Source: Thermococcus alcaliphilus (GTDB taxonomy: Archaea > Methanobacteriota_B > Thermococci > Thermococcales > Thermococcaceae). Taken from it: 64,000 bases of DNA. The position numbers and the translations under genes were made by a program. Positions 10,584 to 13,976 of the stretch are shown here, piece after piece. A model generated the notes under the pieces. It saw nothing but the letters and a program-made list of their open reading frames with translations. It was not told the origin of the DNA and did no database searches. The stretch spans positions 62,001 to 126,000 of the forward strand of contig NZ_JAMXLV010000021.1 in the NCBI RefSeq assembly GCF_024054535.1, read 5' to 3'. Every line of letters starts with the position of its first letter. The first letter of the stretch is position 1.

Positions 10584-11759
10584 ATGAGTGAAGCTCAATT
10601 ATTTATGATGAGAAGAGGAATTGCGGAGCTCCCACTTCACGGCGGACATGTGCCGAGATGGTTGGCTTTAAGAATGAAGAGGTTAGCCGAGCTTGTCTTA
10701 AAGCTTCTAGTCGATGAATACGGCACTCAAGGGGTTCTCGAAAGGCTAGCAGATCCAGTGTGGTTTCAAGCGCTTAACAATCTAATCGGCATGGACTGGG
10801 ATTCATCGGGCTCAACCACCGTGACAGCTGGAATTATAAAAGAAGTTCTCTCAAGAGAAGAGCTCGGAATAAAAGCCGCTGGTGGAAAAGGAGCAAAGAG
10901 CAGACAAACCCCAGAAGAGCTGAAGAAAATAAGCGAGATCTACGAGCTAAACCCCAACGATTACATAAAGACCTCCAAGCTCGTTGCGAAGGTTGACACC
11001 GTTGCCCTGCAAAACGGCTACCAGCTCTACCATCACGTTTTCTTTGTTGATGAAGAAGGGAGATGGGCAGTTGTGCAACAGGGAATGAACCCTTCGGTCA
11101 AACTCGCGAGAAGATACCACTGGTTTTCCGAGAAGGTGGAGTCCTTTACCCTTGAGCCTCACAAGGGCATAAGCGGGATAAAAAGCGAATATGCTCTGAA
11201 TACAATAGCTAAAGAGGCAAAAGAATATCAGAAAACTCTACTTGACCTAATAGCTGAAAGTCCAGCAAAGATTGAAAGAGAAGTCAAAAGCGTGGAAGCC
11301 ATAACAAGGGGATACGTACCGTTTTACAAGCCCTATGAAAAGAGAAAGGTTCTGCCTCTGGTAGAGAGGTACCAGAGCCTTGGAAAGCTTGAGCTCAACA
11401 AGAGGGCATTGGAGCTGGCAAGGGAGCTGAGTGTGAAGAATTATGATGAACTTTTGCTGATTAAAGGCTTAGGGCCGAGCACTCTGAGAGCCCTCTCCTT
11501 GGTTCTCGAGCTTATCTATGACGTTCATCCCTCATGGAAAGATCCGGTAACTCACCCGCCTGATCCATTCAAGTTCGCCTATGCTGTCGGTGGGAAGGAT
11601 AAAGTACCCTTCCCCGTTGAAAGAGGGACTTATGACGACTTGATATCATTTCTTGAGAAGCTCCTCGAAAAGGGCAAGGAGGAAAGAGAGCTCGTTAAAC
11701 AGGTGACGAAGATAAGCAAGAAGTGGAGGTTTCCCGAGGAGGAAAAGAGGGCTACTTGA
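10584..11759 (+). CDS. DUF763 domain protein
   Basis: A 391-residue protein; the DUF763 core starts with RRGIAELPLHGGHVPRWL and runs most of the length. It includes a helix-hairpin-helix-like segment near residues 290-310 (LLLIKGLGPSTLRALSLVLE), which suggests DNA binding. DUF763 is a conserved archaeal and thermophilic bacterial family of unknown biochemical role. The start is uncertain: the ATG at 10584 would need leaderless translation (TTATTAAATT lies about 25 bp upstream), while ATGs at 10605/10608 begin right at the conserved core but lack a good ribosome site. Confidence 0.85.
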   Translation: MSEAQLFMMRRGIAELPLHGGHVPRWLALRMKRLAELVLKLLVDEYGTQGVLERLADPVWFQALNNLIGMDWDSSGSTTVTAGIIKEVLSREELGIKAAGGKGAKSRQTPEELKKISEIYELNPNDYIKTSKLVAKVDTVALQNGYQLYHHVFFVDEEGRWAVVQQGMNPSVKLARRYHWFSEKVESFTLEPHKGISGIKSEYALNTIAKEAKEYQKTLLDLIAESPAKIEREVKSVEAITRGYVPFYKPYEKRKVLPLVERYQSLGKLELNKRALELARELSVKNYDELLLIKGLGPSTLRALSLVLELIYDVHPSWKDPVTHPPDPFKFAYAVGGKDKVPFPVERGTYDDLISFLEKLLEKGKEERELVKQVTKISKKWRFPEEEKRAT

Positions 11760-11956
11760 GAATGAGAACTTTCTTGGCGATGTGAACTTTTTAGATTTTC
11801 GTGCGGTTTTTCTACAGACTTTGTGCAATATACCTTATCAGCTGCACACCCCCCATAGAGAAGCCACTTCCAAAGTGGAACAACTCTGATCTTTGTTCCG
11901 GATTCGTTTATCTCCTCTTTTCCATGTATAATTCAATCAAGACTTTCCTATCTTTT

Positions 11957-11984
11957 AAAATAGCACTAATTTTCCGCCAGCGCT
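11957..11984 (+). repeat. Direct repeat copy A (AGCACT...TTCCGCCAGCGCT)
   Basis: This segment contains AGCACT, then 4 bp, then TTCCGCCAGCGCT. The same arrangement, with 5 bp between the two blocks, recurs at 12507-12533. The 13-bp right block is identical in both copies (11972-11984 and 12521-12533). The copies are about 550 bp apart in the same orientation. Confidence 0.85.
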
Positions 11985-11996
11985 GAAACGTTACCT

Positions 11997-12029
11997 CGCA
12001 AAGTTTCATCAAAGTTGGTGGTTCCTTTT
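11997..12029 (+). repeat. Left arm of 33-bp imperfect inverted repeat
   Basis: Compared with the reverse complement of 12242-12274, 29 of 33 bases match. This includes an unbroken 12-bp block GTGGTTCCTTTT at the inner end, plus AAGTTT and ATCAA. The arms are separated by about 212 bp. The arm starts 12 bp after direct repeat copy A. Confidence 0.85.
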
Positions 12030-12129
12030 CGTAGGGGTGGTTTGGAGGAGGATTTTCTTGAAAACGTTTCGTTTAATTGTGAATTCAAACTTTAGAGAAC
12101 CTAGCCTATAAGAGTTTACATTGTAAAAA

Positions 12130-12146
12130 GACGCCCGAAGGGCGTC
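12130..12146 (-). terminator. GC-rich hairpin followed by a T run (minus strand)
   Basis: On the minus strand, GACGCCC-TTC-GGGCGTC forms a perfect 7-bp stem with a 3-nt loop and is followed directly by TTTTT. It has the look of an intrinsic terminator or the 3' end of a small RNA read leftward. Archaeal termination mostly needs only the T run, so the hairpin itself may be an RNA-stability element. Confidence 0.45.
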
Positions 12147-12241
12147 AAAGTAAGAGAAACTCTCCTAAGATAGCTAGTATTTGTGGAATTCCATCCCAAA
12201 AGAGCCTTTTAGAGTGAAAATCCCTAGTAACAGGACAACAT

Positions 12242-12274
12242 AAAAGGAACCACGAACCTTGATCAAACTTCGCG
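12242..12274 (-). repeat. Right arm of 33-bp imperfect inverted repeat
   Basis: This is the partner of 11997-12029, with four mismatches in 33 positions when read on the opposite strand. It lies immediately upstream (plus-strand sense) of the small hairpin CAAACTTTT-GGA-AAAAGTTTG at 12283-12303. Confidence 0.85.
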
Positions 12275-12282
12275 CAGGCAAG

Positions 12283-12303
12283 CAAACTTTTGGAAAAAGT
12301 TTG
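12283..12303. repeat. Perfect 9-bp hairpin
   Basis: CAAACTTTT and AAAAGTTTG are separated by GGA, making a perfect 9-bp AT-rich stem with a 3-nt loop. It adjoins the right arm of the inverted repeat. Confidence 0.6.
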
Positions 12304-12403
12304 ACCAAAAGAGTTCCCTTCTTACTAACAGGCAAAAACCAGTTGTGCACTACTCAAAAGCACTTTTAAAGGGGTTTACTTCCTAAATACACACTTTCAG
12401 ATA

Positions 12404-12452
12404 GGTTTCAATCCAATTTTAGCGTCCACAGGACGCTTTCCTGAGTGAAACC
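12404..12452. repeat. Two-tier hairpin
   Basis: The outer arms GGTTTCA (12404-12410) and TGAAACC (12446-12452) pair perfectly. They enclose a second perfect stem, AGCGTCC (12421-12427) with GGACGCT (12431-12437), closed by a 3-nt loop ACA. The two stems are separated by an asymmetric internal loop of 10 and 8 bases. It could be part of a structured RNA; the strand is unknown. Confidence 0.55.
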
Positions 12453-12506
12453 CTCATAAAAGAGCATGCAAACAAGAAACCCAACTCATTTATTGTAAAT
12501 CCTTAG

Positions 12507-12533
12507 AAAAGCACTTAACATTCCGCCAGCGCT
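12507..12533 (+). repeat. Direct repeat copy B, next to tRNA-Val
   Basis: This is the second copy of the AGCACT...TTCCGCCAGCGCT unit (see 11957-11984). It ends 20 bp from the CCA end of the tRNA-Val gene, so the two direct repeats bracket most of the gene-free region. Confidence 0.85.
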
Positions 12534-12553
12534 TACGCAGGTAAGGGCTGTTA

Positions 12554-12631
12554 TGGTGGGCCCGCGGGGATTCGAACCCCGGACCTCCACCTCGTAAGGG
12601 TGGCGTCATAACCAGTCTAGACCACGGGCCC
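12554..12631 (-). tRNA. tRNA-Val (anticodon TAC)
   Basis: On the minus strand, a complete cloverleaf can be drawn. The 7-bp acceptor stem GGGCCCG/CGGGCCC is followed by the discriminator A and an encoded CCA. The anticodon stem is CCACC/GGTGG with loop CTTACGA, so the anticodon is TAC (valine). The T arm is CCGGGGTTCGAATCCCCG. No intron is seen. A TATA-like TTTATATTTAAAC lies at about 12650-12662, the right distance upstream. Confidence 0.97.
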
Positions 12632-12673: not shown

Positions 12674-13618
12674 TCATGGAGTTTTCTTGAGCATCTCTTT
12701 AACAACTTCCGCTATAGCCCTTGCAACCGTCGGTGGAACCGACTCCCCAACGCTGTCATACTGCACGTTTCTTCCCCCAAGGAAGATGTGATAGTCCGGA
12801 TAACCCACAAGCCTCGCCTGCTCTCTAACCGTCAAAAGCCTGTCCTCAAAGGGATGGATAAATCTGCTCGTCCCCCTAACCGTTGGGGCGGGCTTATAAG
12901 GGTGTAATCTTATCCAGTTCTTAAATCTACCTCCAAAGGAGTGCAAAGCCTCTCCCCATCCAAGCTTCGCAATTGCTCTTCTTTTCTTGGCCGAAAGCGG
13001 AACGTATTCGTGGTTTGGAATTTCTTCTTCAGAGAATCGTGGATCGGGAAGATCGCCTATTGCATCCCAGACCGTGAGCTTCTCATTGACCTTCGGAGGA
13101 TTCAAAGGCACGTTGGATATGAAGACCCTCTTCCTTATCTGGGGCGTTCCATAATCATAGGCATCCAATATGTTGAAATAAACCTCATAACCAGCTTTTT
13201 TGAACTCCTTTTGGAGGGCTTCTCTCAGAGGGCCTTCCATAACCTGAGGAACTTCCTCCATAACGAAAATTGTTGGCTTAAAAGCCTTCAAAAATCTGAT
13301 AAAATGGAGAACCAATCTGCCAATTGGATCATTGTAAAGCCTGTCGAGGGGGTTCTCCTTCCTCTTCAGGTTTATTGCGGTAAAGGGCTCACAGGGAGGA
13401 CCGCCTATAATCACTTCAACTTCTCCAATCTCCCTTTTGAGCTTCTCCGCATCGAGCCTCTTGATGTCCTCAACAAAGACAATCGTTTCGGGAAAATTGA
13501 TCTGATAGGTCTTTGCTTTTGGAGGAAAGTTCTCTACAGCGGCGACTATCTCAAATCCCTCTTCTCTAAATCCTCTGCTGAATCCCCCCGCACCTGCGAA
13601 GAGATCTATTACCTTCAT
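12674..13618 (-). CDS. DNA (cytosine-5) methyltransferase, no restriction partner nearby
   Basis: A 314-residue C5 methyltransferase. Motif I is DLFAGAGGFSRGF (residues 5-17, S-adenosylmethionine binding), motif II ENF (29-31), motif IV GGPPCEPF (72-79) with catalytic Cys76, motif VI EEVPQV (121-126), motif VIII near TPQIRKRVF, and motifs IX/X near the C-terminus (LTVREQARLVGYP; SVGESVPPTVARAIAE). Motif VI has EEV where ENV is usual. The true start is ATG 13618 at MKVIDLFAG; the frame stays open 201 bp further upstream across the promoter. No endonuclease gene adjoins it. A GCTTTTATACC TATA element lies near 13635-13646. Confidence 0.95.
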   Translation of the reverse strand: MKVIDLFAGAGGFSRGFREEGFEIVAAVENFPPKAKTYQINFPETIVFVEDIKRLDAEKLKREIGEVEVIIGGPPCEPFTAINLKRKENPLDRLYNDPIGRLVLHFIRFLKAFKPTIFVMEEVPQVMEGPLREALQKEFKKAGYEVYFNILDAYDYGTPQIRKRVFISNVPLNPPKVNEKLTVWDAIGDLPDPRFSEEEIPNHEYVPLSAKKRRAIAKLGWGEALHSFGGRFKNWIRLHPYKPAPTVRGTSRFIHPFEDRLLTVREQARLVGYPDYHIFLGGRNVQYDSVGESVPPTVARAIAEVVKEMLKKTP

Positions 13619-13688
13619 CCATCCACCGAAAAGGGTATAAAAGCTAAGCTTTATAAGGTTTTCAAAGTACTCAAGAGAGGCGAGACCG

Positions 13689-13976
13689 GTGGAGCGAGAG
13701 ATCACCGAAGAGAAGCTTAAAAAGTATTTTGAAATCACAAGAGAAGCCCTTGAAAAGCTTGAGATAGCAGTCCATGAAAAAAGCCTCCTCTTCTCTGTAG
13801 CGCAAGACTTTTTAACCATGGCAAAAAGCTACTATAGCGACGCTGAATACTACTACAAGAAAGGGGACTACGTCACAGCATTTGCCGCTTTGAACTACGC
13901 ACATGGCTTTATTGACGCAGGGGTAAGGCTTGGAGTGTTTAAAGGTGAAGATGACAGACTATTTGCATTCGGGTGA
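13689..13976 (+). CDS. DUF357 domain protein
   Basis: A 95-residue helical protein (EKLKKYFEITREALEKLEIA; DAEYYYKKGDYVTAFAALNYAHGFIDAGVRLG). The last segment is the DUF357 signature, a conserved archaeal helical family of unknown function. The start is a GTG at 13689; no in-frame ATG lies near. A TATA-like GCTTTATAAGG at about 13650-13660 serves it, back to back with the methyltransferase promoter. It ends 5 bp before the UPF0212 gene, so the two form an operon. Confidence 0.8.
   Translation: MEREITEEKLKKYFEITREALEKLEIAVHEKSLLFSVAQDFLTMAKSYYSDAEYYYKKGDYVTAFAALNYAHGFIDAGVRLGVFKGEDDRLFAFG

Follow-up and report, generated by a model that had tools for sequence, protein, structure and literature searches.

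Short repeats that move without genes of their own, and elements that home on tRNA genes, are both familiar in prokaryotes. Prokaryotic MITEs have been reviewed, with no mention of Thermococcus or of tRNA (PMC10969869); REP, BIME and REPIN sequences are moved by RAYT, a Y1 HUH transposase (PMC3116915, PMC3733652); the casposase of the family 2 casposon of A. boonei prefers the 3' end of tRNA-Pro and makes 14- to 15-bp duplications (PMC6614799); and archaeal integrases favor tRNA 3' ends as targets (PMC8371274). A literature search on the motif described below, on Thermococcales MITEs and on tRNA-downstream repeats, with most subscription papers outside its reach, returned nothing on the family reported here.

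In the window, that is, the whole 64,000-nucleotide stretch of Thermococcus alcaliphilus DNA that was analyzed, a long imperfect inverted repeat represents the two ends of one noncoding unit (unit 2) within an array of hairpin-ended repeats that lies directly behind a tRNA gene. We consider it probable that this array consists of nonautonomous, MITE-like mobile elements that end in hairpins and strongly prefer tRNA 3' ends.

The array behind tRNA-Val(TAC)

Repeat finding and direct comparison confirmed the inverted repeat reported in the initial annotation: positions 11997-12029 and the reverse complement of 12242-12274 match at 29 of 33 positions, with the inner 12 identical and 212 nt between the arms. 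The ungapped score of the arms was reached by 2 of 400 dinucleotide shuffles of the 794-bp region, which by itself gives them a moderate, suggestive significance; the earlier statement that chance was very unlikely was somewhat too strong on these grounds and was settled by recurrence in other genomes. The inverted repeat is nonrandom because the same inverted ends recur in both orthologous and nonorthologous copies elsewhere. The region is gene free, as had been claimed, with only short overlapping open reading frames (ORFs) across it, and its neighbors are a gene ending at 11759 and tRNA-Val(TAC) (12554-12631, minus strand; ARAGORN; Rfam RF00005, 66 bits), which encodes its CCA and anchors the array. 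This adjoining tRNA gene, a second type of end and the real extent of the array, about 11947-12550, had been overlooked.

The array begins 3 nt past the CCA end of the tRNA and, read in the direction of the tRNA, comprises unit 1 (12550 to 12283), unit 2 (about 12279 to 11985) and a truncated unit 3 (11984 to about 11947). Unit 1 (12283-12550, minus strand, 268 bp) runs from an A end to a B end; a 93% identical copy in the same genome was found by BLAST behind tRNA-Arg(CCG) on contig C18, and A...B units occur elsewhere. Its type A stem-loop, CAGCCCTTACCTGCGTAAGCGCTG (12527-12550, minus strand), is the element that lies 3 nt past the tRNA CCA, and the apical stem covaries among copies; the adjoining conserved box, GCGGAA (12521-12526, minus strand), is kept in copies found by BLAST and in pattern counts for which the reversed control was zero. 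The central GC hairpin of unit 1, GCGTCC-aca-GGACGC (12422-12436), is supported by the consensus of 24 AB units and RNAalifold and is enclosed by GGTTTCA (12404-12410) and TGAAACC (12446-12452). A resemblance of GTTTCAATCCAATTTTAG near 12405 to a CRISPR repeat, seen by eye only, was dropped, since this sequence is part of the central stem. A type B stem-loop, CAAACTTTTGGAAAAAGTTTG (12283-12303, plus strand), with its box ACCAAAAGAG (12304-12313), closes the unit.

Unit 2 (about 11985-12279, minus strand, about 295 bp) runs from B end to B end. The right arm of the inverted repeat (12242-12274, minus strand) is its first B-type end, and the same sequence lies behind tRNAs in other genomes (e.g., at L058 and L235); the left arm (11997-12029, plus strand) is its second, with a stem-loop from about 11985 and a 22-nt exact match in the same genome (C6:6812-6833), which is the end of another B...B unit that is not beside a tRNA. 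Between the arms, the hairpin and T run described in the initial annotation are present: GACGCCC-gaa-GGGCGTC (12130-12146) is followed by TTTTT on the minus strand, and the BB consensus at this place is aCgCCC..GGGCGt. For 11980-12300, the folding z score is -6.1 (minus strand) and -3.5 (plus strand). Both interpretations offered earlier were borne out, in that both arms are B-type ends, which recur in dispersed form, and the two arms bound one unit of about 295 bp from a multicopy family for which there is evidence of insertion. The similar translations of the arms, in contrast, are incidental and carry no meaning, since no coding frame is supported; the 268-bp and 295-bp units hold only short overlapping ORFs, and a coding remnant was rejected for want of a supported ORF.

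Unit 3 is represented by a truncated A end (11947-11984, minus strand, with AGCGCTGGCGGAA at 11972-11984), recognized from the direct repeat D1, the exact motif and an alignment with L032, which places a longer third unit at the orthologous position in G076. The 18-bp repeat D1 (11967-11984 and 12516-12533) represents the A-end motif that units 3 and 1 have in common. It could also pass for an att repeat, which, together with the preference of archaeal integrases for tRNA 3' ends (PMC8371274), would fit the remnant of an integrated plasmid or virus of the tyrosine recombinase type that had used the tRNA as its attachment site. We regard this origin as extremely unlikely, given that D1 belongs to two units of a repeat family, that the array contains neither a coding remnant nor an integrase gene, and that the units recur behind many tRNAs and elsewhere with a duplicated sequence that differs from site to site, whereas att cores are the element's own. 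A plasmid, phage or viral origin was likewise disfavored by searches of plasmid, phage and viral collections, which gave no match at the sensitivity used.

Just beyond the tRNA lies a DNA cytosine methyltransferase-like ORF (12674-13819, minus strand), its function being judged from sequence only. It looks like a lineage-specific insertion beside tRNA-Val(TAC), because the gene is absent in G083, G078 and G074, where homology jumps from about 12674 to about 13602-13639.

Ends, folding and distribution in the Thermococcaceae

Two kinds of stem-loop mark the ends of units of the family, and a conserved box follows each of them. End A has the form CAGCCCTT-loop-AAGCGCTG plus GCGGAA, with a constant C-C mismatch; end B has the form (G/C)AAACTT-loop-AAGTTT(G/C) plus A(T/C)CAAAG, with variants. 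The A...B units (about 265 bp) and B...B units (about 300 bp) are both common, and sizes range from about 265-300 bp in the window to about 110-200 bp for other members, none of which contains a gene. Because the A end is not an inverted copy of the B end, unit 1 lacks classical terminal inverted repeats. In the short copies that have target duplications, the A end is present and the right end is poorly defined.

The multicopy matches that were to be sought by BLAST were found, with related copies both in the genome of the window and in other Thermococcaceae, 76 of 94 genomes in all; the single-copy, unconserved sequence named beforehand as the refuting outcome was not observed. The A motif, CTTN{2,12}AAGCGCTGGCGGAA, is present in 70 of the 94 genomes (reversed control, 0), with up to 16 matches per genome, although overlapping readings of one site may count twice. 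It was found in none of nine genomes of the sister genus g3 and in none of 21 genomes from other families of the class. Most A ends lie right behind the 3' ends of tRNAs of many kinds (Val, Leu, Arg, Ile, Pro, Met, Lys, Ser, Gly and others), most often starting exactly 3 nt past the CCA, with linkers TAA, CAA and TTA (a tally that counts some sites twice). Reading of the 3' flanks in G022, a finished genome, showed an A or B end behind 16 of 34 sampled tRNAs; a regular expression census of the same genome gave nine A and three B ends and missed four B ends visible in that tRNA list. In the genome of the window, 3 of 32 sampled tRNAs have an A or B end behind them. A recurrent non-tRNA site ending in TTTTTGCAAT|CAGCCC was also observed in five Thermococcaceae genomes (L105, L145, L181, L208 and L367).

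Pairing is kept at the tip of the A stem, which reads CTTTC..GAAAG, CTTAC..GTAAG, CTTGC..GCAAG or CTTTGC..GCAAAG. In copies found by pattern, only the inner pairs are informative, because the search pattern itself fixed the CTT/AAG pairs; the tRNA-anchored copies of the A end were found by BLAST, without that pattern. The AB units contain nested complementary blocks around the GC-rich central hairpin, and their alignment gave an RNAalifold energy of -16.3 kcal/mol, compared with -1.3 +/- 1.5 kcal/mol for column-shuffled alignments, with two-sided changes in 9 of 23 pairs. Mean folding z scores were about -6.4 on either strand for BB units and about -3.3 (sense) and -3.0 (antisense) for AB units; since these means are about equal on both strands, they do not distinguish a role in RNA from one in DNA.

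This strongly conserved folding and covariation, the position 3 nt past the CCA of many tRNAs, and an excess of G-U over A-C (50 versus 12) among aligned AB pairs on the tRNA-sense strand would also be expected of tRNA-linked noncoding RNA genes, or of tRNA 3' trailer elements under selection for processing, termination or a read-through RNA, with dispersal as a by-product of gene duplication and of recombination between tRNA loci. We consider such a role improbable, however, since 29 of 32 tRNAs sampled in the window's genome, and all of the g3 genomes, lack the element, copies with target duplications have been inserted away from tRNAs, and the units fold about equally well, on average, on both strands. 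Nor is there an Rfam match: in a scan of the region, only the tRNA scored above the cutoff, and a known RNA family was rejected on this basis.

Occupied and empty sites and the search for the mover

Past movement of the family is evident because occupied and empty pyrI/pyrB sites differ by the element plus a 17- to 18-bp target duplication. The junction (its flanks were named from a reading of the sequence rather than a database search) is contiguous in G025 (94% identical), G066, G049 and other genomes, where it reads ..GGGCATTTTAGAGCACCCCCAGCG.. or a close variant, with no insert. In the occupied junction at L146 (G063), ..GGCATTTTAGAGCACCCCCATAA is followed by an insert beginning CAGCCCTT... 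and then by CATTCAGAGCACCCCCAGCG.., and in G063, G019 and G060, which are occupied, the BLAST pieces share an 18-bp overlap. At a second site, L174, which is contiguous in many other genomes, the duplication measures 16-17 bp. The duplicated sequence differs from site to site, and several occupied sites end in CCA, as tRNA 3' ends do (CTCACCACCA, CTCACCTCCA and AGCACCCCCA), which suggests a common target preference.

Presence and absence are also seen at orthologous tRNAs. The element lies behind tRNA-Val(CAC) in G076 and G077 and not in the genome of the window; among orthologues of the tRNA-Val(TAC) locus, G076 has the longer third unit, G080 has a shrunken remnant, and G078 and G083 have none. 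The clean insertion edges that the initial annotation had hoped for were obtained at the pyrI/pyrB junction and at L174, with target duplication, but not at tRNA-Val(CAC), where the edges are not clean because the intervening DNA differs, although synteny is restored beyond it. Past the far end of arrays that adjoin a tRNA, no duplication of the tRNA tail scored above shuffled controls, and the one borderline score came from a tRNA-Gly (L305) that carries no element. Because no target duplication is detectable at tRNA-adjacent copies, these may have arisen differently. We have demonstrated the structure of the family, its tRNA 3' preference, its presence at some and absence from other orthologous tRNAs, and sites that are empty in some genomes and occupied, with a duplication, in others.

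It can be envisioned that an enzyme supplied in trans recognizes the hairpin ends of a unit that folds back around its central GC-rich hairpin, with a stem-loop and conserved box at each boundary. Insertion into C-rich, CCA-like targets by a staggered cut would produce the Thermococcus duplication of about 17-18 bp, the commonest safe harbor would be tRNA 3' ends, and repeated insertion or duplication there could build head-to-tail arrays; the tRNA-adjacent units would have entered by the same route as the copies away from tRNAs.

The loci examined yielded no transposase and no autonomous relative that shared the ends, and pairs of plus and minus ends more than 350 bp apart enclosed no convincing gene. 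The Y1 transposase (PF01797) is present in G024, G042, G076, G077 and G094 and absent from the window's genome (G000) and from G022, G025, G027, G030, G058, G063, G015 and G095-G098; it was rejected as the mover, since it is missing from the window's genome and from most of the copy-rich genomes tested. Units that serve as nonautonomous substrates of a Cas1-type integrase, through casposase- or Cas1-like integration, would account for the choice of target, and the 14- to 15-bp duplications of the casposase are close in kind to those seen here. We nonetheless regard this mechanism as very unlikely: Cas1 (PF01867) is absent from three copy-rich genomes, G027 (99% complete), G058 and G094, and also from G097, the duplications here are longer, and the casposon study describes terminal inverted repeats rather than stem-loops with a box (PMC6614799). 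Cas1 was rejected as the mover on account of its absence from several copy-rich genomes. The present-day absence of Y1 and Cas1 is compatible with a mover that may since have been lost.

Distant archaeal relatives and comparison with known systems

The A end is not confined to the Thermococcaceae. The pattern CAGCCCTTN{3,10}AAGCGCTGGCGGAA occurs in at least 117 stretches of species genomes, and among the matches listed are genomes of Thermococcus, Aenigmatarchaeota, Pacearchaeota, Woesearchaeota, Altiarchaeota, Nanoarchaeota and Thermoplasmata; about 17 matches (control, zero) lie in the 0.9 Mb of a single Aenigmatarchaeota genome. Eight distinct copies lie inside tRNAs that ARAGORN predicts to contain introns, some of the isotype calls being doubtful. 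Predicted tRNA introns in DPANN and related genomes (L110, L113, L165, L167, L168, L184, L192 and L337) harbor the A hairpin, in the anticodon loop and apparently also in the D and T loops, and several of these loci share a longer sequence, ...GCGGAAAAACCAG...AAAGG..GAGAA.

Some other copies outside the Thermococcaceae have direct repeats on both sides, 16 to 58 bp in length, and the long ones could be target duplications or tandem duplications. Repeats of 23-58 bp were observed for groundwater and Pacearchaeota copies (L185/L338, L187/L330, L343 and L126/L329), and the one at L185 covers the start of an apparent RNA polymerase subunit gene. In Thermoplasmata AUK033 (L119, L130, L133, L136, L147 and L173), a near-uniform repeat, ...CCCTTTCTT-CAGCCCTTTTAGAAAAAGCGCTGGCGGAAAAATGTATCAGTTCTTTTTGGG..., recurs, and there are about 13 A motifs in 1.3 Mb. 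The bacterial label of L215 and L217 (Pseudomonadota CSMAG_1613) is probably a binning error, because the sequence next to the hairpin resembles that of Altiarchaeota L121, and the Shewanella matches L128 and L166, from two related species and in sequence that looks coding, were set aside as probable chance.

Judged by the motif, the shared A end would reflect common descent or transfer. A single archaeal superfamily (CAGCCCTT-loop-AAGCGCTG-GCGGAA) that spans the Thermococcaceae, DPANN, Altiarchaeota and Thermoplasmata, uses tRNAs as harbors both behind the CCA and as a spliced intron, and is moved by an undescribed enzyme that recognizes folded ends is conceivable, but we hold it to be rather doubtful. 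The elements would constitute a widespread archaeal repeat family, seemingly missed by earlier catalogues and unusual for its strong tRNA 3' preference, its documented empty and occupied sites and an end motif common to distant archaeal lineages. It accounts for gene-free stretches behind tRNAs in Thermococcus-type genomes and offers a handle on the presumed integration enzyme and on the gain of introns and long 3' trailers by some archaeal tRNA genes.

Archaeal tRNA introns resemble the DPANN copies, where the A hairpin sits inside predicted introns; the Thermococcaceae element, in contrast, is found behind the tRNA and not within it, and for most copies an intron is out of the question. Casposons such as that of A. 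boonei are alike in target choice (PMC6614799), whereas the units here have no cas1, polymerase gene or casposon-type ends, several copy-rich hosts lack Cas1, and the duplications, of 17-18 bp, are seen away from tRNAs and are not detectable at them. The REP, BIME and REPIN sequences are likewise short palindromes with a conserved tag, found in inverted pairs and clusters between genes (PMC3116915, PMC3733652). Unlike these, the units described here carry a box, GCGGAA or A(T/C)CAAAG, at the 3' foot instead of a GTAG/CGTC tag, have their ends spaced by about 220 bp and make target duplications, and neither the window's genome nor most copy-rich genomes tested encode a Y1 transposase. To our knowledge, target duplications are not expected for Y1 HUH transposition.

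The resemblance to MITEs goes further (PMC10969869): the units are short, without coding capacity, multicopy and dispersed, they fold back, they are associated with target duplication at non-tRNA sites (17-18 bp, at pyrI/pyrB and L174), and they are presumably moved in trans. Unit 2 has terminal inverted repeats (29/33), whereas the ends of AB units, unit 1 among them, are stem-loops of two different kinds. Such dissimilar ends, the 17- to 18-bp length of the duplications, the arrays, tRNA 3' ends as the main target and the lack of a known parent transposon set the units apart from MITEs. In conclusion, the family lacks features that define REPINs, casposons and integrated replicons, and it works like a MITE.
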